DNA of 37,767 bases from a bacterium. Lineage in GTDB: Bacteria > Hydrothermota > Tepidihabitantia > Tepidihabitantales > Tepidihabitantaceae. The notes beneath the pieces were generated by a model. That model saw only the letters and a program-made list of their open reading frames with translations, did not search any database and was not told the origin of the DNA. The stretch covers positions 1 to 37,767 of the forward strand of contig DATJQV010000052.1 in NCBI GenBank assembly GCA_035505375.1, given 5' to 3'. Positions 4,812-24,771 of the stretch are shown here, in pieces (positions within the stretch are counted from its first letter, which is position 1; every line of letters begins with the position of its first letter). The position numbers were made by a program, and so were the translations under genes.

Positions 4812-5903
4812 TTGAGCCGGCACGTCGCTGCTCGAATCGCCGCGATACTGGCTCTTGCGCTCGTCCTGTCGGCCAATGGGCTTGACTATCCGGTCGTGGA
4901 TACCCACCAGGATAGCTGCTACGACACACTCCACGTTATCCCACCGCCCGCGCCGGGCCAGCCGTTCTTCGGCCAAGACGCCCAGTTCAACGGCAATCAG
5001 CCGTCGTACCGGAAGAACGGCGACGGCACGGTGACGGACCTGAACACAGGCCTGATGTGGGTGCAGGAGCGCGGCGTTATGACGTCGGCGGACAGCGCCA
5101 TATCGGGCGCGGCCGACTGCCGGATCGGAGGCTATTCGGACTGGCGGCTGCCGAACGCCAAGGAGCTGCAGTCCGTCGTGGACTACACGCGCGCGCCTGC
5201 GGCCATCAACTCGTCCCAGCGCGGGCCGGCAATCGACACGTCGGTCTTCGCAATCACCGCCATAACCAACGAGCGCGGGGACACTGACTACCCGTGGTTT
5301 TGGACCGGCACGACCCATCTCGACGGGCCGCTTGGCTCACAGTACACGCCGGCGGTCTACGTCACGTTCGGCCGGGCCTCGGGCTGGATGATGCTCCCCG
5401 GCAACTCGTACTATTCGTTCCTCGACGTGCACGGTGCCGGGGCGCAGCGGTCCGACCCCAAGCGCGGCAGCCCGAAAGACTTCTACCTCGGCCTCGACTC
5501 GCTGGGCGATTCGGTATTCGGCCGGGGTCCGCAGGGCGACTGCATCCACATCGAGAACTACGTCCGGCTGGTCCGCAACGCCGGCGCCGGCATAGAACAA
5601 GGGCACAGCGCGCTGCCTGGCCGCGACCGCCCGACATTTACCGCATGCCCCAACCCGTTCCGCACCCAGACAGCTATCAGCCTACAGCTAACGGCTAACA
5701 GCCCGGCGCGGATAGCGGTGTGCGATGCGTCCGGCCGCATCATCCGCTCGTTCGCTATTCGCAAATCGCCATTCGCCAATCGTTATTCAGTAACCTGGGA
5801 CGGTGCCGACGGCAGCGGCAGTCGCGTCAGCCCGGGCGTCTGCTTCTTCAGGCTCGACTGCGCTGGGACCGCTGCTGAAGCCAAGCTGCTCAAGCTGGAC
5901 TAG
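4812..5903 (+). CDS. Exported DUF1566 (Lcl-type) domain protein with FlgD-like C-terminal domain
   Basis: 363 residues from a TTG start 12 bp after the previous stop; no ATG or GTG is available in a sensible position, so the start is uncertain. A signal peptide is present (ARIAAILALALVLSANG). Residues ~65-260 match the DUF1566/Lcl C-terminal domain: RKNGDGTVTDLNTGLMWVQ, then GGYSDWRLPNAKELQSVVDY, and the closing ENYVRLVRN. The family is extracellular and of unknown biochemical role. From ~275 there is a Por/FlgD-like sorting-type domain (CPNPFRTQ, VCDASGRIIRS, WDGADGSG, GVCFFRLDC). Two 35-bp heptamer arrays lie inside this domain and encode parts of its strands. It is probably secreted to the cell surface together with the next five genes. 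Confidence 0.78.
   Translation: MSRHVAARIAAILALALVLSANGLDYPVVDTHQDSCYDTLHVIPPPAPGQPFFGQDAQFNGNQPSYRKNGDGTVTDLNTGLMWVQERGVMTSADSAISGAADCRIGGYSDWRLPNAKELQSVVDYTRAPAAINSSQRGPAIDTSVFAITAITNERGDTDYPWFWTGTTHLDGPLGSQYTPAVYVTFGRASGWMMLPGNSYYSFLDVHGAGAQRSDPKRGSPKDFYLGLDSLGDSVFGRGPQGDCIHIENYVRLVRNAGAGIEQGHSALPGRDRPTFTACPNPFRTQTAISLQLTANSPARIAVCDASGRIIRSFAIRKSPFANRYSVTWDGADGSGSRVSPGVCFFRLDCAGTAAEAKLLKLD
5672..5788. repeat. Two heptamer arrays inside the DUF1566 gene's C-terminal domain
   Basis: 5672-5706 reads agctatc, agcctac, agctaac, ggctaac, agcccgg and encodes the strand around SLQLTANSPA. 5754-5788 reads gctattc, gcaaatc, gccattc, gccaatc, gttattc and encodes the segment around AIRKSPFANRYS. Both stay in frame. 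Confidence 0.85.
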
Positions 5904-6082
5904 CGGTCAGCAACGACAAACGGTGTGACAAAGGGCGGGGACTGAATCGCGATCGTTCTTCATGGGTCAGCGCCGGTCCCGCACTCAACCCAGGAAAGCA
6001 TCATGCGTTTGATGCACTGCGACTCCTTGTGGCAGCCGGAGCACCGCAAGTTTGACGGCTACCGGAGCATCTAAATAGCGGT

Positions 6083-7450
6083 ATGGGCATATTATCAGTA
6101 CTTCTTCTGAGCTTCGCGCTGAGGTCGACCGTAGCTCAGGTCCCGAGTTCCGGCATCAGCGCCATGCAGTTGGATCTGCCGGCCATGACACTCATCAAGA
6201 GCGGGGATTTTGTGATGGGTGACCATTATGGCTATGTTGACACGGCACATCCGAGCGACGAGGTTCCTCTGCATACGGTCCATATAGACTCTTTCTACAT
6301 CGGCACTTACATCACCACCAATCAGGAGTACTGCGACTATCTGAACTCCGCGTATGGGCAGGGGCTCATCCATGTAAACAACAACATCGTCTATCCGGTG
6401 GGCGACACTCACATGCTATACCTCACCCATCAGGATTCGGTGTACTACAGCATCGGCTGGAACGGCAGCACGTTCTCGGTCGTCGATTTCAGGGCTAAGC
6501 ACCCGGTCGTGGGTGTGCTGTGGCTGGGCACGGCCGCGTACTGCAACTGGTTGAGCCAGCAGGAGGGATTCTCCCAGTGCTACGACCTTTCGACCGGGAA
6601 GTGCGATTTCACCAGGAACGGCTTCCGGCTGCCCACCGAGGCGGAATGGGAATACGCCGGCAGGGGCGGGCAGTACAATCCATACTACATCTATCCCTGG
6701 GGGAATGACACGACGAACCCGGCCATCGCCAACTGGCCAAGTTCCGGCGACCCGTATGAAACGGGTCCGTATCCGTATACTACGCCGGTCGGATTCTACG
6801 ACGGGTCGCTGAGGCGGAAATCCGACTACAACTGGCCCGGCAGTGATACGACCTACCAGACGGCAAACGGAGGCAACGCGTACGGCCTTTACGACATGGC
6901 GGGCAATGTCTGGGAGTTCATCAACGACTGGTACAACAAGGACTACTACAGCGTCAGCCCCTATTCCAATCCGCCTGGTCCGGACACGGGCTCAACCATG
7001 CCCGATGGGAAACCCTGCCACGGCATGAGGGGCGGGAATTGGTGGAGCGGGACCTTTGGCTGGTCGCGAGTCTCGAACCGCGACCCTTCGTACTACCGCG
7101 GGCCGGGGAACGACTGGTTCCACGTCGGATTCCGGGTCGCTCGTCCCTTGCGTGGGGCGGGCGTCGACGATGGCGCTGTGACAACTCCGCGCCTCAAGCT
7201 GCTGGCGAACAATCCCAATCCGTTCCGTTTCTCAACCCGCCTCACGTACAGCGTTCCGTCAACGGGGCTCGTGACGCTGCGGGTGTACGACGTCCTGGGG
7301 CACGAGGTGGCGACGCTGGTCAACGCGACGAAGCAGCCCGGCTCCTACGCCGTACAATGGGATGCGCGCAGAAACGCGGCAGGCGTTTACTCGTGCCGTT
7401 TGCAGGCCGGCGGTGAGACGACGACCCGCACACTGCAACTGGTCAAGTAA
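6083..7450 (+). CDS. Exported formylglycine-generating-enzyme-fold (SUMF1) protein, probably non-oxidase
   Basis: 455 residues with signal peptide (MGILSVLLLSFALRSTVAQ). Residues ~30-355 follow the FGE-sulfatase fold: MTLIKSGDFVMGD, the HPVVGVLWLGTAAYCNWLS step, FRLPTEAEWEYAGRGG, GLYDMAGNVWEFINDWY, MRGGNWWSG and VGFRVAR. The active-site Cys pair of true formylglycine-generating enzymes, expected just after RGGS, is replaced by WWSGTFGW, so sulfatase activation by the usual mechanism is unlikely. Most such relatives are binding or modified-enzyme variants. A Por-type C-terminal domain follows (NNPNPFRFSTRLTYSVP, RVYDVLGHEVATL, GVYSCRLQ). The start ATG lacks an obvious Shine-Dalgarno. 5904-6082 upstream holds no recognisable feature. 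It heads the sulfotransferase gene group. Confidence 0.85.
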   Translation: MGILSVLLLSFALRSTVAQVPSSGISAMQLDLPAMTLIKSGDFVMGDHYGYVDTAHPSDEVPLHTVHIDSFYIGTYITTNQEYCDYLNSAYGQGLIHVNNNIVYPVGDTHMLYLTHQDSVYYSIGWNGSTFSVVDFRAKHPVVGVLWLGTAAYCNWLSQQEGFSQCYDLSTGKCDFTRNGFRLPTEAEWEYAGRGGQYNPYYIYPWGNDTTNPAIANWPSSGDPYETGPYPYTTPVGFYDGSLRRKSDYNWPGSDTTYQTANGGNAYGLYDMAGNVWEFINDWYNKDYYSVSPYSNPPGPDTGSTMPDGKPCHGMRGGNWWSGTFGWSRVSNRDPSYYRGPGNDWFHVGFRVARPLRGAGVDDGAVTTPRLKLLANNPNPFRFSTRLTYSVPSTGLVTLRVYDVLGHEVATLVNATKQPGSYAVQWDARRNAAGVYSCRLQAGGETTTRTLQLVK

Positions 7451-7487
7451 TCTTGTACCGACAACCATGAAACCACAAGGAGATGCG

Positions 7488-9206
7488 ATGGCGAGGAAGA
7501 GTCTGTTTGTGCTTCTGCTGCTGGTGCTGGGTCACCAATCGCTGTTCGGACAGCCGCGCACAGTCGGCCTGTTTCTGAACGACACGACCCAGGCCTACAA
7601 GGGCTATACGCTGTTCTATCCGAAGCTGTACAAGTCAACCTACCTGATCAACAACGAAGGGCGCCTGGTCCACAAGTGGTCGAGGAGCACCTATGCACCG
7701 GGCCAGGCGGTTTTCATCCTTTCCAACGGCAATCTCCTGCGGACGTGCAGCGTAGTGAACGACTCGGTCAACACCGGCGGCGGTGAGGGCGGAAGGGTCG
7801 AGGAATACACGTGGGATGACTCGCTGGTCTGGCAGTTCGATTACTCGACCTCGACCTACATGACTCACCATGATATTCGCCAGCTCCCCAACGGGAATAT
7901 CATCATGATCGCCTGCGAGAAGAAGACCATTCCCGAGGTCATCCAGGCCGGTTTCGACACGAGCAAGTTCTCGGCCGAGTTCTACCAGAACGGCTACCTT
8001 CTTCCCGACTACGTCATCGAAGTCCAGCCCACGTTCCCATCGGGCGGCAACATCGTCTGGGCATGGCACGTCTGGGACCACCTCATCCAGGACTTCGACT
8101 CGACCAAGTCGAACTACGGCGTGGTCTCCAGCCACCCGGAGCTCATCAGTTGTGACGCGCCGGGCGGGAGCGGGACCCTGGCCTGCTTTTGGAACCACAT
8201 GAACGCCATCTACTACAACGCGAAGTTCGACCAGATTTGTCTGAGCGTGCGCGGCAACAGCGAGGTGTGGGTCATCGACCACTCGACGACGACCGTCCAG
8301 GCAGCCGGCCATTCCGGAGGAAAGTACGGCCACGGCGGAGACCTGCTGTACCGCTGGGGAAATCCGGCAGAATACAAGCTGGGCAACCAGAGCAACGAGA
8401 TGCTCTTTCAGCAGCACGACGCGCACTGGGTTGACTCAGGCTGTCCGGGCGCCGGCGACATGCTCTGTTTCAACAACGGCGAAGGCCGGAATTACTCATC
8501 CATCGACCAGTTCACGCCGCCGGTCGACACAGCCGGAGTCTATCACCGGGGTTCCGGCCAAGCCTTCGGCCCGACCGCGTTGAGCTGGACTTTCGTCTAC
8601 ACGCCGCCCGAGTCGATGTTCGCGCAGGATATCTCCAGCGCCCAGCGTGAGCCGAACGGGAACACGCTGATCTGCAACGGTCCGCTCGGACGGTTCTTCG
8701 AAGTGACGTCAGCGGGCACGATAGTCTGGAAGTACGTGAACCCGGTCGTGCAGAACGGGCCCCTGCACTACAACGACAGCATTCCCCACGACCCGCACAA
8801 GTCCGACCAGTTGCAGAACGACGAATTCCGGGTGCAGCGTTATGCGCCGACCTACGCGGCGTTCAACGGCAAAGACCTGACGCCCGGCGACCCCGTTGAG
8901 CTGGGTGGATTCGCGGTCGCGGAACCGGCCTCGACCCTCGTACCGGCCAGCGCCAGATTCCTCGCCGGACCCAGCGCTTTCCGAGATAACGCGACTATCG
9001 CCTTCTCCCTGCCCGAGGCGGCCGAAGTGGAGCTTGCGGTGTACGACTGCCGCGGCGCGCTGGTTACCGTGCTGGGCAGGGGTCCGTTGTCTGCCGGCTC
9101 GCACCGGTTCGCGTGGCATGCCGGGTCCTCGCCCAACGGCGTCTACGTCTGCCGCCTGCGGACGGGCACCGTGACTCTGAGTGAGAAACTGCTTAAGCTT
9201 GACTAG
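7488..9206 (+). CDS. Arylsulfotransferase-like (ASST) exported protein, copy 1
   Basis: 572 residues; ATG 7488 is chosen because aaggag lies 5 nt upstream (an ATG at 7467 lacks this). Signal peptide MARKSLFVLLLLVLGHQSLF. The body is a propeller of the ASST type: THHDIRQLPNGN (His128), FWNHMNAIYYN (His237, Asn239), LSVRGNSE (Arg255), LYRWGNP and QQHDAHWV (His310). The H-x-N and the Arg 18 residues later reproduce the spacing of His356/Asn358/Arg374 in E. coli ASST, and His310 is placed like the sulfated His436. By family knowledge the enzyme moves sulfate between phenolic esters without PAPS; the true donor and acceptor here are unknown. A Por-type C-terminal domain without heptamer arrays follows (IAFSLPEAAEVELAVYD). 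Confidence 0.82.
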   Translation: MARKSLFVLLLLVLGHQSLFGQPRTVGLFLNDTTQAYKGYTLFYPKLYKSTYLINNEGRLVHKWSRSTYAPGQAVFILSNGNLLRTCSVVNDSVNTGGGEGGRVEEYTWDDSLVWQFDYSTSTYMTHHDIRQLPNGNIIMIACEKKTIPEVIQAGFDTSKFSAEFYQNGYLLPDYVIEVQPTFPSGGNIVWAWHVWDHLIQDFDSTKSNYGVVSSHPELISCDAPGGSGTLACFWNHMNAIYYNAKFDQICLSVRGNSEVWVIDHSTTTVQAAGHSGGKYGHGGDLLYRWGNPAEYKLGNQSNEMLFQQHDAHWVDSGCPGAGDMLCFNNGEGRNYSSIDQFTPPVDTAGVYHRGSGQAFGPTALSWTFVYTPPESMFAQDISSAQREPNGNTLICNGPLGRFFEVTSAGTIVWKYVNPVVQNGPLHYNDSIPHDPHKSDQLQNDEFRVQRYAPTYAAFNGKDLTPGDPVELGGFAVAEPASTLVPASARFLAGPSAFRDNATIAFSLPEAAEVELAVYDCRGALVTVLGRGPLSAGSHRFAWHAGSSPNGVYVCRLRTGTVTLSEKLLKLD

Positions 9207-9215
9207 GAGTTATGC

Positions 9216-10898
9216 ATGAAGCGCCTGGTTAGATTCGGTAGTCTCTTTGCCTCCCTCTTCCTGCTGCTGGCCGCGGCATCGCCAGTCGCGGCAGTGCAGC
9301 ATACGCTGGGTCTTTTCCTCGACGACTCAGCCGCCTGCAACGGCTACACACTATTCTGCCCGCTGCACTACGGCACGGCCTATCTCATCAACGACAGCGG
9401 CATGCTCTGTCACTCGTGGCCCAGCATCCAGGCCGGCCAATGCGCGTGGCTGCTGGAGAACGGTGAGCTGCTGCATACCGGCAACGCCGGCAACAACTCC
9501 TACTTTCCGAATGCCGGCGGCGGTGGGAGATTCATGGAGTACGATTGGGACGGCAACCTGGTTTGGAGCTTCAAGTACTCGGACAGCATGCACCTCCAGC
9601 ACCACGAGGTCAGGCAGCTTCCCAACGGCAACGTGCTGGCAATCGCATATGACCGCGTGCCCTACAGCCAGGCCATCGCCGAGGGACGCCGGCCCGACTA
9701 CCTGCCCGACAGCGTCGTGTGGGCGGATGAGGTCATTGAAGTGCAGCAGACCGGCGAGTCCACCGGCACGGTTATCTGGGAGTGGCACGTGCAGGACCAT
9801 CTGATTCAGGACTACGACTCGACCAAACTGAACTTCGGCGTGGTGGGCAACCACCCGGAGCTGGTCGACTTCAACTTCGGGCCGACCAAGGCCTGTTGGA
9901 ATCACACCAACTCAATCTACTACAACGCCGACCTTGACCAGATTCTCCTCAGTGTTCGGAACAACAGCGAGATATGGGTCATCGACCACTCGACGACCAC
10001 CACCCAGGCAGCAAGTCACACCGGAGGAAAGTACGGCCACGGCGGAGACCTGCTGTACCGCTGGGGCAATCCCCAAGCCTACCGCGCCGGAACCGCCTCC
10101 GACCAGAAGCTCTTCCAGCAGCACGACGCCGAGTGGATTCCTGCGGGCTGTCCGGGAACGGGCCACATGACCATTTTCAACAACGGCCTCGGACGTCCGG
10201 GAGGAAACTACACGACCGTGGACGAGATAGTGCCGCCTGTGGACTCGCTCGGCAACTACTACCTGCCTACCGGCGGGCACTACGGCCCGGACACGATGGC
10301 ATGGATATACGCCGCGTCTCCCGAAACGAGCTTCCATTCACTGGAAATCGGCTGCGCGCAGCGCGAGCCCAATGGTAACACGCTGATTGACGACGGCACC
10401 CATGGCGTCTTCTTCGAGATCGCCCCGGATACGAGCATGGTCTGGCGGTACGTGAACCCGGTTAGCGATTCCGGCCCGCTTTATCAAGGCGACACGGCCG
10501 GGAACGACCCCAACCATTCGGATCAGAAGATGAGTTCCGTGTTCAAGATTCACCGCTATGCGCCGGACTACGCCGGCCTCGTCGGCCACGACCTCACTCC
10601 GCAGGGCCCGATTGAGCGCCACCTGCCGGGCGTCGCGGAACAGGCAGCCCGAATCGTGTCGGCGCCGCGCCTGCTCACGAACCTGCCCGGTGTTCTCACC
10701 ATCGCCAACCTGCCCGCGCAGGGCGAGGTCGAGCTTTACTCGGTGTCGGGTCGCTTGCTGCGGCGAACAGCCGTAGCAGTTGGCCAGTCGTCGCTCCGGC
10801 TTGACCTCAAGTCTCTGCCGGCCGGCGCCTGCCTCTGCGTCGTCAAAGGAGCAAGCGGCGAAGTTGCACTGCGAGCCAAGGCCGTAATAATCAGATAG
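9216..10898 (+). CDS. Arylsulfotransferase-like (ASST) exported protein, copy 2
   Basis: 560 residues. It starts 9 bp after copy 1 with an aggag box, so it is surely co-transcribed. Signal peptide KRLVRFGSLFASLFLLLAAA. Same ASST propeller as copy 1, and strongly similar along its length: LQHHEVRQLPNGN (His130), CWNHTNSIYYN (His230, Asn232), LLSVRNNSE (Arg248), QQHDAEWI (His303). All putative catalytic positions are kept. The C-terminal domain is present but more diverged (ELYSVSGRLLRRTAV) and has lost the usual WDG and GVY motifs, ending GEVALRAKAVIIR, so export or anchoring of this copy may differ. Tandem duplication with retained catalytic residues suggests different substrates or donors. 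Confidence 0.82.
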   Translation: MKRLVRFGSLFASLFLLLAAASPVAAVQHTLGLFLDDSAACNGYTLFCPLHYGTAYLINDSGMLCHSWPSIQAGQCAWLLENGELLHTGNAGNNSYFPNAGGGGRFMEYDWDGNLVWSFKYSDSMHLQHHEVRQLPNGNVLAIAYDRVPYSQAIAEGRRPDYLPDSVVWADEVIEVQQTGESTGTVIWEWHVQDHLIQDYDSTKLNFGVVGNHPELVDFNFGPTKACWNHTNSIYYNADLDQILLSVRNNSEIWVIDHSTTTTQAASHTGGKYGHGGDLLYRWGNPQAYRAGTASDQKLFQQHDAEWIPAGCPGTGHMTIFNNGLGRPGGNYTTVDEIVPPVDSLGNYYLPTGGHYGPDTMAWIYAASPETSFHSLEIGCAQREPNGNTLIDDGTHGVFFEIAPDTSMVWRYVNPVSDSGPLYQGDTAGNDPNHSDQKMSSVFKIHRYAPDYAGLVGHDLTPQGPIERHLPGVAEQAARIVSAPRLLTNLPGVLTIANLPAQGEVELYSVSGRLLRRTAVAVGQSSLRLDLKSLPAGACLCVVKGASGEVALRAKAVIIR

Positions 10899-10901
10899 CG
10901 C

Positions 10902-13055
10902 GTGAAAACAGCGACAGTTCTGACGCTCGGCCTTCTCCTGTTCGAAATCGGCCTTGTCTCAGCCCAGCCTGAGCCATGGGTGCATCCGGACGGATCAATC
11001 CATTACTACAACGCGGTCGCGGCTCCTGCCGGCATCAACTGGGCTGCGGCGTCGGACTCGGCGCAACGTCCCGGCGGCTATCTTGCCACCATTACCTCGC
11101 AGGCCGAGAACGATTTCGTCTACGGTCTCGTTGATTCCGGCATCTACTGGCACCAACGTTCGGGCAAGTGGGCCGGGCCGTGGCTGGGCGGCAAACAGCG
11201 GCTCGGTGCGCCCGAGCCGGACAGCGGCTGGCAGTGGATAGACGGCGAGCCCTTCAGCTACAGCAACTGGTCGCCGGGTGAGCCCGACAACCAGGGCGAC
11301 GAAAACGCTATCAACTTCGGCGAGTCCGCGAGCGGCCGGATTCCCACGTGGAACGACTTGAGCGACGCCGACACCGCAGTCCACGGCTACGTCGTCGAGC
11401 TCTCGGCCGACTCGACCACCATCGGGCTGCTCCAGAACGACACGAACGCGTCCGTCGGCTACAACCTGTTCGAGTCGAACCGCGCGCGCTTCATCTACCT
11501 CGTCGACAACAAGGGCCGCTACATCCACTCCTGGTACAGTACCTATCCGCCCGGGCTGTCCAACTACCTGCTCGAAGACGGTAGCCTGCTCCACACCGCG
11601 ATGATAGGCAACACCCACTTCACGCCGGGCGGCAGCGGCGGCCGAGTCGAGCGCTACGACTGGGACGGCAACCGGACCTGGTTCTACAACTACTCGAGCA
11701 GCAACTACTGCCAGCACCATGACGTCGAGCCCCTGCCGAACGGCCACGTGCTGCTGGTGGCCTGGGAGCTGAAGACGCGAGCCGAGGCCATCGCGGCCGG
11801 CAGAGATACGACCAAGCTCACCGACAACGAACTCTGGCCCGACCATGTGGTCGAGGTCGACACGGCGAACGACAGCATCGTCTGGGAGTGGCACGTCTGG
11901 GACCACGTAATACAGGACTACGACTCCACCAAATCCAACTACGGCGTGGTGGCCAACCACTCGGAACTGGTTGACCTGAACTACATCCGGAACGGGAATA
12001 CCGGCGCCGACTGGATTCACACCAATGCCGTTGACTACAACCCGCAGTTCGACCAGATACTGCTGAGCGCGCACGACTTCGGCGAGGTCTGGGTGATTGA
12101 CCACTCGACCACGACCGCGCAGGCAAAGGGTCACACCGGCGGCCGTTACGGTATGGGCGGCGACCTGCTCTACCGCTGGGGCAATCCGCAAGCCTACCGC
12201 GCCGGCGGTACGAGCAACCGGAAGTTCTACGGCCAGCACGACTCCAAGTGGATAGTGACCGGACTGCCCGGGGCCGGCCACATCATGGTCTACAATAACG
12301 GCCCGGGCAGGCCCGGTGGCCAGTACTCGACGGTTGACGAATTCGTCCCGGACTGCGACAGCACCGGCCACTACAATCGTCCCGCGCCGGGCAGCCCGTT
12401 CGGCCCGTCCGCGCAGTCCTGGATATATGCGGCCACGCCGCCGGCCAGCTTCTTCTCGGCGAGCATCTCGGGTGCTGAGCGTCTGCCGAACGGCAACACC
12501 CTCATCTGCGAAGGTAACAGCGGCTACTTCTTCGAGGTGACGCGCGACTCACAGGTCATCTGGCGCTACCTCAACCCGCAGACCGACTCGCTGCGCCTGT
12601 ACCAGGGCGACACGGTTCCGAGTGGCGTCTCGGACAAGCAGAACGCCACGTTCCGCGTCACCCGGTACGCGCCCGACTACGCGGGCCTCGTCGGCAAGAA
12701 CCTGACGCCCGGATACCCGCTAGAGCGCTACCGCTCGCCGGTGCTGGGGCTGGCCGAAGTTGCGAGGCAACCTGTTCGTCCCGGCATTGCCCTCAGCGTG
12801 CAGCCGAATCCCGCTCGGGTGGGGAGCGCTATCAGCCTACAGCTAACTGCTAACGGCTCGGAGCAAGTCTCGGTCTTCGACGCTTCCGGCCGCCTCATCC
12901 GGTCCCTCCCTCAATCTAGAATCTCCAATCTTGCATCCAAAATGATCTGGGACGGTCGCGACGCTTCCGGCCGTCTCTGTCCGCCGGGCGTCTACGTCTG
13001 CCGCCTCTCTGCCACCGGCGGCGCGGCGACGCGGAAGCTGGTGCTCGCGAACTAG
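10902..13055 (+). CDS. C-type lectin domain fused to an ASST-like domain, copy 3 (catalytic Arg changed)
   Basis: 717 residues, GTG start 3 bp after copy 2. Signal peptide to ~22. Residues ~25-168 form a C-type-lectin-like domain: INWAAASDSAQRPGGYLATI, SNWSPGEPDNQGDENAINF and WNDLSD, with an EPD/WND calcium-site-like pair, so sugar or surface binding is plausible. Residues ~170-620 are ASST-like: QHHDVEPLPNGH (His273), WIHTNAVDYN (His373, Asn375), YGQHDSKWI. The residue 18 positions after His373 is His391 (LLSAHDFGE) where copies 1 and 2 and the known enzyme have Arg, so sulfotransfer may be altered or lost. A Por-type C-terminal domain (VQPNPARVGSAIS, WDGRDASG, GVYVCRLS) contains two heptamer arrays. 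Confidence 0.82.
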   Translation: MKTATVLTLGLLLFEIGLVSAQPEPWVHPDGSIHYYNAVAAPAGINWAAASDSAQRPGGYLATITSQAENDFVYGLVDSGIYWHQRSGKWAGPWLGGKQRLGAPEPDSGWQWIDGEPFSYSNWSPGEPDNQGDENAINFGESASGRIPTWNDLSDADTAVHGYVVELSADSTTIGLLQNDTNASVGYNLFESNRARFIYLVDNKGRYIHSWYSTYPPGLSNYLLEDGSLLHTAMIGNTHFTPGGSGGRVERYDWDGNRTWFYNYSSSNYCQHHDVEPLPNGHVLLVAWELKTRAEAIAAGRDTTKLTDNELWPDHVVEVDTANDSIVWEWHVWDHVIQDYDSTKSNYGVVANHSELVDLNYIRNGNTGADWIHTNAVDYNPQFDQILLSAHDFGEVWVIDHSTTTAQAKGHTGGRYGMGGDLLYRWGNPQAYRAGGTSNRKFYGQHDSKWIVTGLPGAGHIMVYNNGPGRPGGQYSTVDEFVPDCDSTGHYNRPAPGSPFGPSAQSWIYAATPPASFFSASISGAERLPNGNTLICEGNSGYFFEVTRDSQVIWRYLNPQTDSLRLYQGDTVPSGVSDKQNATFRVTRYAPDYAGLVGKNLTPGYPLERYRSPVLGLAEVARQPVRPGIALSVQPNPARVGSAISLQLTANGSEQVSVFDASGRLIRSLPQSRISNLASKMIWDGRDASGRLCPPGVYVCRLSATGGAATRKLVLAN
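12827..12944. repeat. Two heptamer arrays inside the lectin-ASST gene's C-terminal domain
   Basis: 12827-12861 reads cgctatc, agcctac, agctaac, tgctaac, ggctcgg. 12910-12944 reads ctcaatc, tagaatc, tccaatc, ttgcatc, caaaatg. They sit at the same two structural positions as in the DUF1566 gene; the first word is shared between genes, the second is different. Confidence 0.85.
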
Positions 13056-13076
13056 GGCCGTACAAGGAGAAAGAGC

Positions 13077-14801
13077 ATGAACACCAAGGTCTTGATTTTC
13101 CTTCTCGCTGTTGTCTTTGGTTCGGCGTTTGCGGCGCCGCCTTTGCCCGCACCCACGCTCGACACCGTGAACTTCATCGGCGCTGAGATACTCAGCCGGC
13201 CGACCAACCACTCAGTGACGGTCAGTGTCATACCCAGGGTCGCGCTCGTAGTCCGCTTCGAATACGGCACCGACACGACCTACGGCAGCCTGACGCCGGC
13301 GGAGACGACCGTGGCCGACACGCCGCACTTCTTCGTGCTCGGCGGGCTACTGCCCGACCTGCAATACTACTACCGAATGCGCTACGTTGTCGTGGCAAAC
13401 GGCGAATCGCTCGTGGGTCCGGGCCGCACGTTCCACACTCAGCGACCTCCGGGCGAGAAGTATGTCTTCGACGTCGAGGCCGACCCCCACATGCTCCCGG
13501 CCCAGGGTGACACAGCGCCGGCGTTTGAGCAGACGCTCGCGACCCTCGCGGCCGACAAGCCCGACTTCCTAGTCGACCTTGGTGACAACTTCATGTTCGA
13601 CAAGTGGAAGACGCCCGCCCCGGAAACCATCCTGATGCGGGTGCTCGACTACCGCCAATGGTGGAGCGAGGCCTGTCACTCGATACCGCTCTTCATCACT
13701 CTCGGTAACCACGAAGGTGAGCAGGGCTGGGACCTCGACTCGACGCCAACGAGTACGCCGGTGCTCTTCACCAACGCCCGCAAACGCTACTACTGGAACC
13801 CGGTGCCGGACGGCTTCTACACCGGCGACACCATTCCGGAGCAGTACGTCGGCCTGCGCCAGGACTACTACGCCTGGAACTGGGGCAACGTCCAGTTCGT
13901 GGTGCTCGACCCCTACTGGCATACCATGACCAAACCGCACGGTCTGGAGACCAACTGGGACTGGACCCTGGGTCGAGCCCAATACGACTGGCTCAAACAG
14001 ACGCTCGAGCAAAGCAGCGCGAAGTTCAAGTTCGTATTCATCCACCACCTGGTCGGCGGCAATATCGACTCGTCGGCGCGGGGTGGAATCGAATACGCCC
14101 ATTTCTACGAATGGGGCGGGCTCCGTTCTGACAGCACCTGGGGCTTCGACTCGCTCCGTTCGGGCTGGGGCGTGCCGATTCACCAACTGCTGATTGACAA
14201 CCACGTGGACATCCTCTGGCACGGCCACGACCACTTCTTCGGCAAACAGGACACCGACGGCATCGTCTACCAGGAGTGCCCGCAGCCTGCGCGTGCGAGG
14301 TGGGAAAGCCTGCCTAACCAAGCGCCCAAGTACGGCTACAAGAGCGGCGTCATCATGGGCAGCCGCGGCTACACGCGGGTCACGATGGACGACACCAGCG
14401 CCAAGGTCGAGTACGTCCGCACTTTCCTGCCCAGCGAGACTTCGGCCGTCCACCACAACGGCGACGTCGCCTACTCCTACACTATCGTCAAGCACGGCAG
14501 CGGCGGAGTCGATAGTCCAAAGTCATTGCCGAGTCCCGCGTCTATCTCAGTCTCGCCCAACCCATTCCGTACGAGGACGGCTATCAGCTTACAGCTAACG
14601 GCTCACAGCCCGGCGCGGATAGCGGTCTACGACGCATCGGGTCGCCTAGTCCGTGTCCTTGCCTCGCCCCGACCCCTGACCCCCGACCCCTGGTCCCTGA
14701 TCTGGGATGGCCGCGACCAGGTCGGCGCAATTGTGCCGCCCGGCGTTTACTTTGTCAGGGCCGCCGATGGCGTCAGGCAGCAGATTGTCAAAGTGAGATA
14801 G
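13077..14801 (+). CDS. Exported purple-acid-phosphatase-like metallophosphoesterase
   Basis: 574 residues with an acaaggag box 8-10 nt before ATG and a signal peptide (KVLIFLLAVVFGSAFAA). Residues ~20-120 form a fibronectin-III-like N-terminal domain ending in the typical LLPDLQYYYRMRYV. The calcineurin-like domain shows all metal-binding blocks: EADPHM (D-x-H), LVDLGDNF (GD), TLGNHEGE (GNH), FIHHLVGG and LWHGHDHFF (GHxH). These bind a dinuclear metal centre that hydrolyses phosphate monoesters; the substrate is unknown. The Por-type C-terminal domain (VSPNPFRTRTAIS, WDGRDQVG, GVYFVRAAD) again carries two heptamer arrays. It closes the exported-enzyme group; pairing sulfotransferases with a phosphatase suggests extracellular ester scavenging, by inference. 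Confidence 0.85.
   Translation: MNTKVLIFLLAVVFGSAFAAPPLPAPTLDTVNFIGAEILSRPTNHSVTVSVIPRVALVVRFEYGTDTTYGSLTPAETTVADTPHFFVLGGLLPDLQYYYRMRYVVVANGESLVGPGRTFHTQRPPGEKYVFDVEADPHMLPAQGDTAPAFEQTLATLAADKPDFLVDLGDNFMFDKWKTPAPETILMRVLDYRQWWSEACHSIPLFITLGNHEGEQGWDLDSTPTSTPVLFTNARKRYYWNPVPDGFYTGDTIPEQYVGLRQDYYAWNWGNVQFVVLDPYWHTMTKPHGLETNWDWTLGRAQYDWLKQTLEQSSAKFKFVFIHHLVGGNIDSSARGGIEYAHFYEWGGLRSDSTWGFDSLRSGWGVPIHQLLIDNHVDILWHGHDHFFGKQDTDGIVYQECPQPARARWESLPNQAPKYGYKSGVIMGSRGYTRVTMDDTSAKVEYVRTFLPSETSAVHHNGDVAYSYTIVKHGSGGVDSPKSLPSPASISVSPNPFRTRTAISLQLTAHSPARIAVYDASGRLVRVLASPRPLTPDPWSLIWDGRDQVGAIVPPGVYFVRAADGVRQQIVKVR
14579..14702. repeat. Two heptamer arrays inside the metallophosphoesterase C-terminal domain
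   Basis: 14579-14613 reads ggctatc, agcttac, agctaac, ggctcac, agcccgg. 14668-14702 reads cccgacc, cctgacc, cccgacc, cctggtc, cctgatc. The first array shares its word with the other two genes; the second uses a new word at the same structural position. Confidence 0.85.
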
Positions 14802-14860: not shown

Positions 14861-15136
14861 CGGGGAGGCAATTCTCCGAGCAAGCCGGAGAGCAACGGCC
14901 GGGGTTAACTCGGGAGCAACCCGGACAGGAACCCTCGGACTTGCTCGGGTCGTAACGCTCCGACCAACCCGGAGAGGAACCGGTGGAGCAACGGGTAGAC
15001 TAACCGGGGAAGCTAACCGAAGAGGAACCGGTAGACCAACCCGGCGAGCTACGATGGAGGTTCATCTGGGAATTGCGGTGGAGACAACCCTTCGGGCTAT
15101 ACCTCAACCTATCCCCTAACCTATCCGGGGGGTAAT
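14861..15136. repeat. 12-bp-period degenerate tandem array, about 23 units
   Basis: In a gene-free stretch (14802-15483) the sequence falls into a 12-bp register for ~276 bp; units such as ccggagagcaac, ccggagaggaac, cggtggagcaac, cggtagaccaac, ccggcgagctac share a G/A-rich middle and an aac-like end. Two 13-bp units are each compensated by an 11-bp one, so the phase is kept. All frames checked contain stops, so it is not a repeat protein gene. A 7-bp stem (ccggggg 15125-15131 with cccccgg 15137-15143) marks its end. Function unknown. Confidence 0.8.
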
Positions 15137-18172: not shown

Positions 18173-18204
18173 TGCTAGAAGAAGGGGTTCAGCGGCGAAA
18201 GCGC

Positions 18205-18270
18205 GGAAAACGGGGACTGTACCGCGCCGAGTCCGACTCAGGCGCTCCGAGGGACTGTTCCCTGTTTTCC
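18205..18270. repeat. 66-bp hairpin repeat, copy B
   Basis: Outer arms ggaaaacgggga / ttccctgttttcc, inner stem gcgcc / ggcgc, and an additional central stem gagt-ccg-actc. It matches copy A at 2391-2456 over its whole length with one single-base gap. It lies between apgM and the YfiM-like gene. Confidence 0.8.
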
Positions 18271-18283
18271 GAGGGGCGAGTAC

Positions 18284-19573
18284 TCATTGCAGGCCGAGGA
18301 CGGTTCGGATGAACTGGTTGCCGTGGAGCAGTCCGAGGCTGCCCGTTGCGCACGCGGCCTCATCGTAGGTCTGGACCGAGTCGGGCGTAAGGCCGGGCGT
18401 GAGAATAGCGACCGGGACAGGGCCGTGGACGTGGTTCCCCTTTGCGACAGGCGTGAGGTGGTCGGGCAGGACCGCCACAGTTACAGGACCGAGGACCGAG
18501 GACCGGGGACCGGTTCCCATGTCCTCAATGCCCTTCATGACTCGCGCGACAAGGCGCGAGTCGAGGTACTCGATGGCGAGGACCTTCTGCTTCAAGTCCT
18601 TGGCGTGTCCCGCCTCATCCGAGGCCTCGACGTGGACGAAGACGAAATCGTGGTCTTCAAGAGCCTTCAGACAGGCGTCGGCCTTGCCTTCGTAGTTGGT
18701 GTCAATCAGGCCGGTGGCGCCGGGTACGCCAATTACATCGAGCCCGGCGTAGACGCCGAGGCCCTTAATCAGGTCGACCGCCGAGATAACCGCGCCGGTG
18801 ATGCCGAACTGCTCTTTCAGCGTCTTCATCTTCGGCTTGCGGCCCTGGGACCAGAACCAGATGGAGTTGGCCGGGTCCTTGCGCGCTTTGACCCGTTCCT
18901 TGTTGACCGAGTGCTGGGGCAGCAGTTCCCAGGAGCAGCGAATCATGTCGTCTAACCGGGCAACCGTCGGCTTGGCATCATCGGACTTCGGTACAATCAT
19001 CAGGTCCTCGACCTTCTCGCCGACGTGGTCGTGGGGCGGGAAGCACTCGAAGTCAGTAGAGAACGAGGGACCAGAGCGATTGGCGAATGGCGATTGGCGA
19101 ATGGCGATTGGCGGATCGGGTTCGGACAGCACGAGGAGGTGGCGGTAGGAAACGCCGGGGAAGAAGTGGGCGTCGTCGCCGCCGATATAGCGGTCGACGC
19201 AGCGGATGAGTTCGTGCGCCTCCGCGGTCGAAATGTGTCCGGCCGAGTGGTTCTTGATTCGGCCGTCAGCGATGCAGATGAGGTTGCACCGCATGGCAAT
19301 GTCGGTGTCGTTCAGCTTCACGCCCATCGAGGCGGCCTCGATGACACCGCGACCCTGGTAGCATTCACGTGGGTCATACCCGAGCACGGTCAGGTTTGCG
19401 ACCTCGGAGCCCGGCGGCATGTCGTCATCAACCGTCACGAACGAGCCGCAGCGGCCGAGCCGGGCGATCCGGTCGATGGCAGGCTTGTTCGCGGCCTGAA
19501 GTGGGGTCTTGTCGCCGAGTTCAGGCACGGGGAAGTCGGCCGCACCGTCGGCGAGAAAAACGATGTACTTCAT
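18284..19573 (-). CDS. apgM: Cofactor-independent phosphoglycerate mutase, archaeal type (ApgM)
   Basis: 429 residues. It interconverts 3- and 2-phosphoglycerate in glycolysis. The alkaline-phosphatase-fold landmarks are present: VFLADGAADFPV (metal ligand Asp9), MPPGSEVANLTVLGYDP (Ser56, the phospho-acceptor), GVIEAASMGVKL, HVEASDEAGHA and VAVLPDHLTPVAKGNHVHGP. The start ATG lies at 19573 with no clear ribosome-binding site, downstream of an octamer element. Two heptamer arrays occur inside the gene in frame: 19078-19119 (IAIRQSPFANRSG, next to the ECFPPHDHVGEK block) and 18485-18512 (MGTGPRSSVLGPVTVAVL). Both probably fall in surface loops, and the conserved blocks on either side are intact, so the enzyme is likely active. 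Confidence 0.93.
   Translation of the reverse strand: MKYIVFLADGAADFPVPELGDKTPLQAANKPAIDRIARLGRCGSFVTVDDDMPPGSEVANLTVLGYDPRECYQGRGVIEAASMGVKLNDTDIAMRCNLICIADGRIKNHSAGHISTAEAHELIRCVDRYIGGDDAHFFPGVSYRHLLVLSEPDPPIAIRQSPFANRSGPSFSTDFECFPPHDHVGEKVEDLMIVPKSDDAKPTVARLDDMIRCSWELLPQHSVNKERVKARKDPANSIWFWSQGRKPKMKTLKEQFGITGAVISAVDLIKGLGVYAGLDVIGVPGATGLIDTNYEGKADACLKALEDHDFVFVHVEASDEAGHAKDLKQKVLAIEYLDSRLVARVMKGIEDMGTGPRSSVLGPVTVAVLPDHLTPVAKGNHVHGPVPVAILTPGLTPDSVQTYDEAACATGSLGLLHGNQFIRTVLGLQ
18485..18512. repeat. Heptamer array inside apgM (near the C-terminus)
   Basis: aggaccg, aggaccg, aggaccg, gggaccg, continuing as gttccc. Read on the coding strand it gives the segment TGPRSSVLGP. Confidence 0.8.
19078..19119. 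repeat. Heptamer array inside apgM (middle)
   Basis: gattggc, gaatggc, gattggc, gaatggc, gattggc, ggatcgg. It is the reverse complement of the word used at 5754-5788 (gccattc/gccaatc), so two unrelated genes carry the same word in opposite orientation yet encode almost the same peptide (QSPFANR / KSPFANR). Confidence 0.85.
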
Positions 19574-19590
19574 GAGTGAATATGGGTTGG

Positions 19591-19683
19591 AGGGATAGAG
19601 GGGTATAGAGATAGAGGGATAAAGTGGCCGGACTCGGATTTCTTCACTCTATCCCTTACTCCCTTTGTCCCTTTATCTCTATC
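19591..19683. repeat. Octamer inverted-pair element between M42 and apgM genes
   Basis: Left arm agggatag, aggggtat, agagatag, agggataa (19591-19622). A centre of about 25 bp. Right arm from 19647 in pyrimidine octamers (ctctatcc, cttactcc, ctttgtcc, ctttatct). Arms are pseudo-complementary. The right arm contains the stop codon of the M42 gene. Confidence 0.8.
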
Positions 19684-20728: not shown

Positions 20729-22159
20729 TCAACCCCTTGGGAACTTCCGCTGCAGGAAATCGGAGAACCACCCGTAGTCATTCGGGCCCTTCTCGTAGTG
20801 CTCGGGTTTAGCATCCAGGCCAGCAAGGGATGGTGGTAGCGGCGGGTCGACGCTGAGCAGGCGCTGGATTTCTTCGGGGAACTTGGCCGGGTGGGCGGTT
20901 TCGATAGAGATCGAAAGAGGTTGAGGGATAGAGGGATCAAGGGATCGAGGGATCGAGTGCCCGGCCGGGCCACTTTGTCCCTTTGTCCCTTTATCCCTTT
21001 GTCCCTCTTCTGCGAGGTAGCGTTCAAGCCCGGCCCAGCCGACTGCGCCGTGCGGTTCGAGCATTGTATTGTACTTCGCCCAGGCGTCCCTGATTGCCTG
21101 CCGCGTTCCCGCGTCGTCGACGCTCGTCGAGTAGATGTCTCGCCGCATGGCCGCGAAGTCGGGTTCCTTCGTCACCTTGCCCTGCTCGTCCATAACGCCG
21201 CCGTACAGGGCGACGAGACGCGGCAGGTTCGAGGGATGGCCGACGTTCATCGCATTGGAGATGCAGACGCGCGAAGGCACGATCTTCTCGTACCTACCGG
21301 TGGCGATGAACTTCGGGAACTCGTCGTTGGCGTTAGTGGCGATGACGTATCGTGCGACCGGCAGGCCCATCTCCCGCGCAATCAGACCGCCGCAGATGTC
21401 TCCGAAGTTGCCGGACGGAACGGAAATGATGGCTGCCTCGTTGTTCTCTTGCAGCTTGGCCCACGCGTAGAGATAGTAGACCGCTTGCGGCAGGAGCCGG
21501 CCGATGTTGATGGAGTTGGCCGAGGAGAAGCGGATGCGCTTCAGTTCCGGGTCAGTGAAGGCACGCTTCACCAAGGCCTGGCAGTCGTCGAACTGGCCGT
21601 CGACGCCGATAACCGTGACGTTGCCGCCGAGCGTGGTCATCTGCTTGCGCTGGCGGTCCGAGACTTCCTTGATTGGGAAGAGCACAACCATCGAGATGCG
21701 GTCGACGTTGTGGAACGCGTGCGCGACTGCCGAGCCGGTGTCGCCGGAAGTGGCGGTCAGGATGACCAGTTCACCGCCCTCCTGCGCGAGGAAGTACCGC
21801 ATCATCCGTGCCATCATACGGGCCGCGAAGTCCTTGAAGCTTGCGGTTGGGCCTTGGTCGAGGCGCATAAGGAAGTACCGGTCGTGGACCTTCTCAAGCG
21901 GCACGTCGTAGTTGTAGCACTCACCACAGAGACGCATCAGTTCGTCGTCGGGAATCAGGCCCTGCGTGTAACGCTTCAGGACCGCGAAGGCGATTTCCGG
22001 GTAGGTCTTGTCACGGAACCCGACGATTTCTTCCATCGGGATGCGGGGGATTTCACTCGGAATGTACAGGCCCTTGTCCGGGGCCTGGCCCTGCAGCAGA
22101 GCGCCCTTGAGGTCAACGTCGGGAGAGCGAAGATTGGTAGAGTAGAGGAGGCCCGACAT
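20729..22159 (-). CDS. thrC: Threonine synthase with an in-frame repeat element
   Basis: 476 residues; a PLP enzyme turning O-phosphohomoserine into threonine. Diagnostic parts: N-terminal YSTNLRSPDVDLKGALLQG, the PLP lysine Lys109 in GPTASFKDFAAR, TATSGDTGSAVAHAF, VSDRQRKQMTTLGGNV, IISVPSGNFGDICGGLIA and the C-terminal IETAHPAKFPEE. Between LERYLAEEG and SIETAHPAKF there is a ~30-residue foreign stretch (QRDKGTKGQSGPAGHSIPRS and onward) encoded by an octamer inverted-pair element at 20924-21008; normal ThrC has a short turn there. It sits away from the active site, so the enzyme may tolerate it. The ATG is 3 bp from the stop of the upstream PLP enzyme; the two plus the M42 gene form one operon. 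Confidence 0.93.
   Translation of the reverse strand: MSGLLYSTNLRSPDVDLKGALLQGQAPDKGLYIPSEIPRIPMEEIVGFRDKTYPEIAFAVLKRYTQGLIPDDELMRLCGECYNYDVPLEKVHDRYFLMRLDQGPTASFKDFAARMMARMMRYFLAQEGGELVILTATSGDTGSAVAHAFHNVDRISMVVLFPIKEVSDRQRKQMTTLGGNVTVIGVDGQFDDCQALVKRAFTDPELKRIRFSSANSINIGRLLPQAVYYLYAWAKLQENNEAAIISVPSGNFGDICGGLIAREMGLPVARYVIATNANDEFPKFIATGRYEKIVPSRVCISNAMNVGHPSNLPRLVALYGGVMDEQGKVTKEPDFAAMRRDIYSTSVDDAGTRQAIRDAWAKYNTMLEPHGAVGWAGLERYLAEEGQRDKGTKGQSGPAGHSIPRSLDPSIPQPLSISIETAHPAKFPEEIQRLLSVDPPLPPSLAGLDAKPEHYEKGPNDYGWFSDFLQRKFPRG
20924..21008. repeat. Octamer inverted-pair element inside thrC
   Basis: Left arm agggatag, agggatca, agggatcg, agggatcg (20924-20955). The centre contains the perfect palindrome cccggccggg. 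Right arm tttgtccc, tttgtccc, tttatccc, tttgtccc (20974-21005). It is read through in frame by thrC on the - strand. Confidence 0.88.
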
Positions 22160-23580: not shown

Positions 23581-24771
23581 CTAAGCGGTGCGGGACATGC
23601 CGAGCAGCTCGGCGATGACCCCGAAACCAACGGCCATGCTTATGAGCCAGATCGCCCATCCCGCGACGGGGATGGCGCACAGGCCAAAGACGACGATGAT
23701 ACCGACCGGCGCGGCCCACCACAGCGATACGTCAGGCGAGCCGAACACCCGGAAGAGGAGCCGGCCGGAGAACAAACCTGCGAGCACCTTGGCGAGGTAG
23801 AGGCTGACAAGATACGCAGCGCCGGCGATAAGGCCGGCGGGAATCGTGATGATGAGCGCGAACGCGATCAGGATGCTCATCGGCCCGATGAGGAACCCGA
23901 TCGTGCCGAACCCGAGGGTCCGACCCCAGTGGGCAAACGAGCGGGCGATACCTTCGTCCAGTGCCTGCTTCCAGATCGCCACCAGCAGGAATCCGACCAC
24001 AAGCGCGCCGATTATCGACAGGATTGTGAACGGCAGGAAGAAAGTGACGAACGTGCCGGGCCGGGGCTTCATTTCCTTGATCTCGCTGGGCGATGGAAGC
24101 TGCACGTGCTCGATATTGCCGAACACCATGTCGGGGTTGCCGATGTCCAGTTTCTTGCTCGAGCGGTAGCGCAGGTTTCCGTAGATGCGCGCGTCAGGAG
24201 TGAGCGTCAGCTTGTCGGTCACGGTCACGTCAACGTCGCCGTCAATCGAGCCCGATATCCTAACCTGTCTGGCAACCGCCTTGATGTCGCCGCGCACTAC
24301 ACCGTCGATGTCGAGCGACCGGCAGGCTGCGGCAATGTCGCCCCGCACCTCCGCGTTCTTGCCGATGACAAGGTTCGCGCAACCGGCCAGCACATCCTGG
24401 CCCACCCCGCCGTTGATGTAGATCGTGCCGGCGCCGGCGCGAACTGCGCCGCCTACGGTGCCGTTGACGTTGAGCGTGGCACAGATGGCCACGATGTCAC
24501 CGGCTACGGCGCCGGAGGCGTCCACGCTTTGGGCGGCGAGAAAGAGGTTGCGTGTGACCGGACCCGAGACATTGATGGACTGGGCACCAGCCAGAGCCGA
24601 ACCGTCGAGCCGTCCCTCGATGCGCATCATTGTGCCGCCGAAGTAGATGTCTCCAATGCGCGTTTCCTCGGCCGGCAGAGTGTAGCTCGGCCCGCCGACA
24701 AACTCCGCAGCGAGGGTGAACGCGAATAGTGAAGAGAGGAGGAAAAGAAGCCGGGTCGGAAGTCTTGTCAT
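23581..24771 (-). CDS. Exported bactofilin-like beta-helix domain with polytopic membrane tail
   Basis: 396 residues. Signal peptide (RLLFLLSSLFAFTLAAEF). Residues ~30-225 are a right-handed-helix-like series of short repeats of the polymer-forming/bactofilin kind: LAGAQSINVSGPVTRNLFLA, VNGTVGGAVRAGAGTIYING, VVRGDIKAVARQVRISGSID. Residues ~240-395 contain four to five membrane segments (FVTFFLPFTILSIIGALVVG, IGPMSILIAFALIITIPAGL, AAPVGIIVVFGLCAIPVAGW, WLISMAVGFGVIAELLG). Bactofilins are usually cytoplasmic; with a signal peptide, this domain should face outward, so it more likely forms an envelope scaffold. It stands between three small lipoprotein genes and amino-acid genes in one - strand run; whether the functions are linked is unclear. 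Confidence 0.82.
   Translation of the reverse strand: MTRLPTRLLFLLSSLFAFTLAAEFVGGPSYTLPAEETRIGDIYFGGTMMRIEGRLDGSALAGAQSINVSGPVTRNLFLAAQSVDASGAVAGDIVAICATLNVNGTVGGAVRAGAGTIYINGGVGQDVLAGCANLVIGKNAEVRGDIAAACRSLDIDGVVRGDIKAVARQVRISGSIDGDVDVTVTDKLTLTPDARIYGNLRYRSSKKLDIGNPDMVFGNIEHVQLPSPSEIKEMKPRPGTFVTFFLPFTILSIIGALVVGFLLVAIWKQALDEGIARSFAHWGRTLGFGTIGFLIGPMSILIAFALIITIPAGLIAGAAYLVSLYLAKVLAGLFSGRLLFRVFGSPDVSLWWAAPVGIIVVFGLCAIPVAGWAIWLISMAVGFGVIAELLGMSRTA

Follow-up and report, generated by a model that had tools for sequence, protein, structure and literature searches.

Heptamer and octamer arrays at two fixed segments of sorting domains, and at many other sites, in the genome of a candidate division WOR-3 bacterium

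We analysed a stretch of 37,767 nucleotides, here called the window, which makes up the entire contig C52. The genome, of candidate division WOR-3, comprises 3.6 Mb in 90 contigs. Five genes of the window (Table 1) encode proteins ending in a sorting domain, a short beta-sandwich which resembles FlgD and the T9SS type A sorting domain and whose fold matches PorU and FlgD. The curated cut-off of TIGR04183 (T9SS type A sorting domain, 23 bits) is passed by three of the five, namely the SUMF1 (31.8 bits), lectin-ASST and phosphoesterase proteins; ASST copy 1 stays below it at 19.6 bits, and the DUF1566 protein is not among the listed matches. With PF13860 (FlgD Ig-like, FlgD_ig; cut-off 27 bits) the lectin-ASST protein scores 28.2 bits and the others 20.5-24.4 bits, the DUF1566 protein lying under the cut-off at 23.3 bits. 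The genome also encodes SprA (TIGR04189, 323.5 bits against a cut-off of 200), together with neighbours, and judging by SprA the organism probably possesses type IX secretion. Three arylsulfotransferase-like genes stand in tandem at 7362-13055, with several more copies on contigs C75 and C7, and an imperfect 36-bp tandem repeat (14962-15051) lies immediately 3' of the phosphoesterase gene. At 18203-18272 we noticed a REP-like palindrome, GGAAAACGGGGACTGT...GGGACTGTTCCCTGTTTTCCG, forming a strong DNA hairpin (z -5.7), whose family counts dozens of copies of 82-95% identity in congeners. An Rfam search of the window gave no match.

Table 1. Coordinates of the genes, sorting domains and arrays considered in the window
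Feature	Position	Strand	Details
DUF1566/Lcl_C exported protein	4812..5903	+	FlgD-like C-terminal domain; Pfam Lcl_C 62.7 bits; start codon uncertain
Slot-1 heptamer array, DUF1566	5672..5702	+	AGCTATCAGCCTACAGCTAACGGCTAACAGC; word AGCTNAC; encodes ISLQLTANS
Slot-2 heptamer array, DUF1566	5751..5788	+	TTCGCTATTCGCAAATCGCCATTCGCCAATCG...; word GCCATTC/GCCAATC; encodes FAIRKSPFANR; TRF
Sorting domain, SUMF1 protein	7202..7447	+	array-free, length unchanged; sequence reading
Sorting domain, ASST copy 1	8955..9203	+	array-free, length unchanged; sequence reading
Lectin-ASST protein	10902..13055	+	sorting domain 12786-13049; TIGR04183 32.9 bits
Slot-1 heptamer array, lectin-ASST	12833..12858	+	word AGCTNAC
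Slot-2 array, lectin-ASST, weak	12913..12937	+	CAATCTAGAATCTCCAATCTTGCATC; word CAATCTN; lag-7 score 7.0
Calcineurin-like phosphoesterase	13077..14801	+	sorting domain 14541-14798; Metallophos 40.2 bits; TIGR04183 24.2 bits
Slot-1 heptamer array, phosphoesterase	14579..14609	+	word AGCTNAC; strand B and B-C turn in model
Slot-2 heptamer array, phosphoesterase	14667..14702	+	CCCCGACCCCTGACCCCCGACCCCTGG...; word CCCNGAC; strand D end, D-E turn and strand E in model
Heptamer array, phosphoglycerate mutase gene	18485..18513	-	word CGGTCCT; 24-bp insertion common to G002, missing in four congeners
Heptamer array, phosphoglycerate mutase loop	19076..19113	-	8-mer arrays or nothing here in congeners
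Inverted octamer-array pair	19584..19680	.	intergenic
Inverted octamer-array pair in threonine synthase	20922..21007	-	inserted; DNA hairpin z -5.2; dispersed ~83-bp family

Direct reading of the gene ends confirmed the observation of the initial annotation that the DUF1566, lectin-ASST and phosphoesterase genes carry arrays of heptamers at the same two positions of the sorting domain, which we call slot 1 and slot 2. One word fills slot 1 in all three genes and a different one fills slot 2 in each, also as described. The uniform array length of 35 bp given there had to be corrected to about 26-38 bp, and of the slot-2 array of lectin-ASST the repeat itself is visible but its score remains under the calling threshold (lag-7 score of 8). 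The array-free copies, ASST copy 1 and SUMF1, show the same spacing as the array-bearing ones, so the equal length claimed for them was upheld.

The genome encodes about 140 FlgD-like/T9SS-like C-terminal domains, 139 of which were analysed. They contain 32 arrays, whereas codon shuffles give 2.6. Of the 32, the linker holds 7, slot 1 holds 10 and slot 2 holds 14, with 1 lying elsewhere; with the linker excluded, 24 of the 25 arrays inside the domain fall into a slot. Slot boundaries were fixed after inspection, but the permutation statistic is independent of them; clustering this strong appeared in 0 of 20,000 permutations, and the result was the same after repeated words had been taken out. 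Both slots are filled in six domains (hypergeometric P 3e-5). Random placement, which according to the initial annotation would speak against its reading, was thus not seen. Besides the domains of the window, others have the same slots filled with unrelated words, octamers included. The GR..W segment, which holds slot 2, has a median of 22 amino acids with arrays and 21 without, and the PNP..YD segment, which holds slot 1, has 24 in both cases; the domain is therefore not lengthened by arrays. The phosphoesterase domain was modelled with AlphaFold2 (pLDDT 87); there slot 1 is predicted to correspond to strand B plus the B-C turn, and slot 2 to strand E together with the D-E turn and the last part of strand D.

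Arrays are by no means confined to sorting domains. We sampled 0.8 Mb of this genome (G000), consisting of the window and stretches L062-L132, around all detected sorting domains and in array-rich regions. This sample holds 227 lag-7 and 44 lag-8 arrays, against 1 of each in shuffled controls (block-shuffled for lag 7), while lags 4, 5, 10, 11 and 13 are near zero. Lag-12 arrays, a separate class, are raised as well (81 versus 10 shuffled in the same 0.8 Mb). Arrays of 7-bp and of 8-bp units alike have a median length of about 33 bp. Dozens of degenerate words are in use, besides the 8-bp class, and the variable positions of the 7-mer units tend to adjoin each other; the unit therefore consists of a conserved core of 4-5 nt and 2-3 variable nt. 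Array density is 1.28 per kb in noncoding DNA, 0.43 in sorting domains and 0.21 in other coding DNA, in a sample biased to sorting domains and to six stretches rich in the word AGCTAAC and with an approximate coding mask. Within genes the arrays gather at the ends (35 of 131 in the first decile, 42 in the last two), and they also occupy signal peptides, linkers, housekeeping enzymes and a loop of another conserved enzyme. Extrapolation from the sample suggests roughly a thousand arrays per genome. Tiles may be nested: at L192 9813-9932 an octamer array, CACTCGAC..., continues on the far side of a TCCCTCTA array that breaks it.

Turnover was followed in five congeners, which come from separate assemblies and projects (UBA2258, LacPavin, Alinen and Zod, these four assigned to candidate division WOR-3, and one more) and whose DNA is about 80-85% identical in the sampled genes. 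An assembly artefact was rejected on account of these separate projects and of arrays that are near base-for-base equal in the closest pair. At the empty/filled site of the phosphoglycerate mutase (PGM) gene, inspection by eye showed no target-site duplication. The PGM loop carries a 7-mer array in G000, while G003, G004 and G005 each have a different 8-mer array there and G001, G002 and G007 have none; since remnants of the flanking codons are common to three genomes, the 7-mer array seems to occupy the former place of an 8-mer array. The threonine synthase (thrS) loop has 8-mer arrays with differing words in all six species and is free of them in G007 and in Phycisphaerae homologues. The thrS orthologues on L192 and L195 (G003 and G001) have in addition an in-frame insert, KMGTVPPG-GLSPFSN, absent in other congeners, which resembles the translation of a REP-type palindrome. 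In slot 1 of the phosphoesterase, the AGCTNAC 7-mer of G000 faces a GGACCACT 8-mer in G005. The word switching that the initial annotation had suggested looking for between strains is thus real between species, where both word and period differ at orthologous PGM and thrS loops and at this slot.

In general, arrays at orthologous sites were gained by insertion, rewritten with the length preserved, or replaced by arrays of a different word or period. Counting anchored sites, in classes that overlap and with reciprocal comparisons included, 19 arrays are absent from a sister that is also shorter and 7 are absent at equal length; some of the latter are signal peptides, in which biased codon use could resemble an array. 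Where both species have an array, 27 sites show at least 2 word differences, 7 differ in period, and 14 keep the same word; six of these 14 join the pair G004-G005. In the orthologues of the gene at 23581-24771 (- strand), the signal-peptide region is heptamer-encoded in G004 and G005 (L193 1582, L194 11015) and has ordinary codons at equal length in G000 and G002.

Words are shared locally: by 23% of array pairs less than 150 bp apart, by 12% at 0.5-3 kb and by 4% on other contigs. Whole-array pairs of at least 94% identity with unrelated flanks number 42, against 13 after permutation of unit order. At a level of at least 90% we observed 139 pairs; because unit-permuted controls still yield 67-94, copying explains only part of the array similarity. 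The clustered variable positions of the 7-mer units are beyond what simple copying explains.

Our preferred explanation, to which we assign a probability of about 0.6, is that tiles of some 35 bp, built of 7-bp or 8-bp units, are spread by local templated copying and insertion and sieved by selection. A population of short, degenerate tiles throughout the genome would serve as the source, and new ones would be copied from existing arrays used as templates, through template switching or gene-conversion-like patching in gap repair, possibly with some contribution of polymerase slippage in 7-nt steps. Written tiles would then drift by point mutation. Selection would discard most coding hits and retain those that are in frame, stop-free and compatible with the fold, so that arrays would accumulate in signal peptides, linkers, loops and the two beta-hairpin segments of the sorting domain. 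Among the compared genomes no donor-recipient copying event was seen directly.

Plain replication slippage, in which every array would have arisen where it now lies, by expansion of a chance duplication followed by divergence, the slots being sites where growth is tolerated, agrees with the slippage-prone nature of 7- and 8-nt units, with local word sharing and with in-phase drift. As summarised in PMC4679880, heptamers outnumber the other longer repeat classes in many bacteria, and polymerase slippage at a 7-nt polymerase footprint had been proposed for heptameric repeats. Slippage should however lengthen the domain, the length of which is constant; the units are degenerate and their variable positions cluster, the same unit order recurs between unrelated flanks, and the near equality of the closest species pair stands beside another word or period at the same site in other species. 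We consider this explanation fairly unlikely. Duplication of one ancestral domain, which the initial annotation had named as a refuting explanation of the shared first word, would account for that word and for the shared positions, as AGCTNAC with flanking GGCTATCAGC-like sequence is found in four domains (three in the window and one on C24). Yet identity between paralogues peaks at 87-93% on the slot-1 patch and drops mostly to 39-67% in the remaining segments, and other domains fill the slots with words of their own. The phosphoesterase and its neighbour DUF1566 agree at 93% in slot 1, at 83% in the block that follows it immediately and at 44-61% in the other segments; with its own G005 orthologue the phosphoesterase patch agrees at only 47%. 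At the level of sequence, local copying of the patch fits better than duplication of the whole domain, which we regard as improbable.

A dedicated system rewriting the two segments in order to vary surface anchoring or recognition would suit the two exact slots, their joint filling above expectation, the equal length and the switching of words between species. It is nevertheless hardly credible, given noncoding DNA three times denser in arrays, their presence in PGM, thrS, the loop of another conserved enzyme and signal peptides, and RVT_1 not found in two array-rich genomes (see below). Of the two readings offered by the initial annotation, targeted or tolerated overwriting, the latter is favoured by the genome-wide slots, the unchanged length and the other words and periods in sister species; the former is not, because arrays are denser in noncoding DNA and present in loops of other enzymes. 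Length-neutral rewriting could instead be insertion with a compensating deletion, or selection on length alone. Small mobile hairpin elements of REP/MITE type, with the arrays as their remains after insertion in genes, would explain why octamer arrays frequently form inverted pairs, as in the dispersed thrS hairpin, and the genus is rich in REP-like palindromes. Heptamer arrays taken singly showed no folding (z 1.2, 0.0 and -1.1), which rules them out as hairpins, neighbours of the same period are inverted in 31 cases and direct in 44, and the PGM site lacks a visible target-site duplication, all of which leaves this origin very improbable. Beyond the tile copying that we prefer, it is unlikely, though conceivable, that a dedicated, hitherto undescribed process writes ~35-bp tiles of 7- or 8-bp units from a shared vocabulary into bacterial genomes, maybe across phyla, as the tiles of a Kovacikia plasmid (see below) would suggest, and that in this WOR-3 genus it can replace protein segments, beta-strands included, without change of length.

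Arrays occur in all six sampled genomes of the WOR-3 genus and are rare in most relatives. Outside the genus, most of the stretches taken from 19 genomes hold few or none, the exception being G025, AT-rich, with 6 arrays in 9 kb; G007 and G008 have a few. Among 147 genomes of the phylum, one 8-mer pattern was found in the six genus members and one other genome, and the 7-mer CAGAANN in 17 genomes of 11 genera, distant families included. The distribution of reverse transcriptase (RVT_1) does not track arrays: it was not found in the incomplete genomes G001 (95% complete) and G005 (88%), though arrays are abundant in both. Reverse transcriptase was accordingly rejected as an obligate partner. 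A diversity-generating retroelement, for which the enzyme is expected in every array-bearing genome, is improbable, with some doubt left by the incompleteness of these two genomes.

Heptamer repeats have long been known to be over-represented in bacteria, without an accepted mechanism. Heptameric repeats are the closest known class to the WOR-3 arrays, and a 2015 paper (PMC4692102) stated that detailed literature on them was lacking. The heptameric SSRs/STRRs of Nostoc, Calothrix and Xanthomonas are likewise dispersed and noncoding-enriched, with 7-bp units, a preference for about four of them and prominent repeats at other genes in related species, but the study concerned one G-rich word of GGGNATC type (PMC4692102). 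The WOR-3 arrays share the dispersed tandem 7-bp units and not the one or few constant words: their words are degenerate and number in the dozens, and an 8-bp class is present as well. They also lie in coding DNA, with replacement of word and period at orthologous protein loops. The TAACTGA repeats of Beggiatoaceae, Cyanobacteria and Bacteroidetes are heptamer direct repeats too, in two to six copies and patchy across phyla, but consist of a single fixed word in intergenic DNA upstream of start codons, with stops in the forward orientation (PMC4679880). Borg tandem repeats (PMC9879509) are similarly fast-evolving, lineage-restricted and present in ORFs and intergenic DNA; their ORF units have lengths that are multiples of three and are almost always perfect, whereas WOR-3 arrays have degenerate units of 7 or 8, are read in all frames and do not lengthen the sorting domain. 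Repeats of Borg type were rejected on unit size and degeneracy. Rickettsia palindromic elements are also short and tolerated in frame within many proteins, but they are longer than our tiles, have one palindromic consensus per family and lengthen the protein. REP/REPIN palindromes (PMC3733652, PMC3116915) are alike in being short and dispersed, with some inverted pairs, and differ by a fixed consensus with a tag, single WOR-3 heptamer arrays not being palindromic. Heptamer repeats are thus a known class, and what looks new is the density, the replacement of word or period at orthologous sites and the length-neutral rewriting of beta-strands; in the literature available, no paper on tandem repeats in WOR-3 was found.

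With very many arrays, congeners and the same slots in about 140 domains as built-in controls, the genus is a test bed in which insertion, slippage and templated copying are therefore separable. Conserved enzymes and a secretion domain that, at defined segments, accept varied repeat-encoded peptides also offer a natural test of the sequence needed by a fold. The encoded peptide SSLIPHP, searched in plasmids, had no match, and KSEVRSQ matched seven records, none with an annotated feature beneath the match. On plasmid pA of the cyanobacterium Kovacikia minuta (L248 15000-15155) we noticed four consecutive tiles of 34-38 bp with different heptamer words, spaced by about 38-42 bp; one of these words, AGAAGTC, is also found in the WOR-3 genome.
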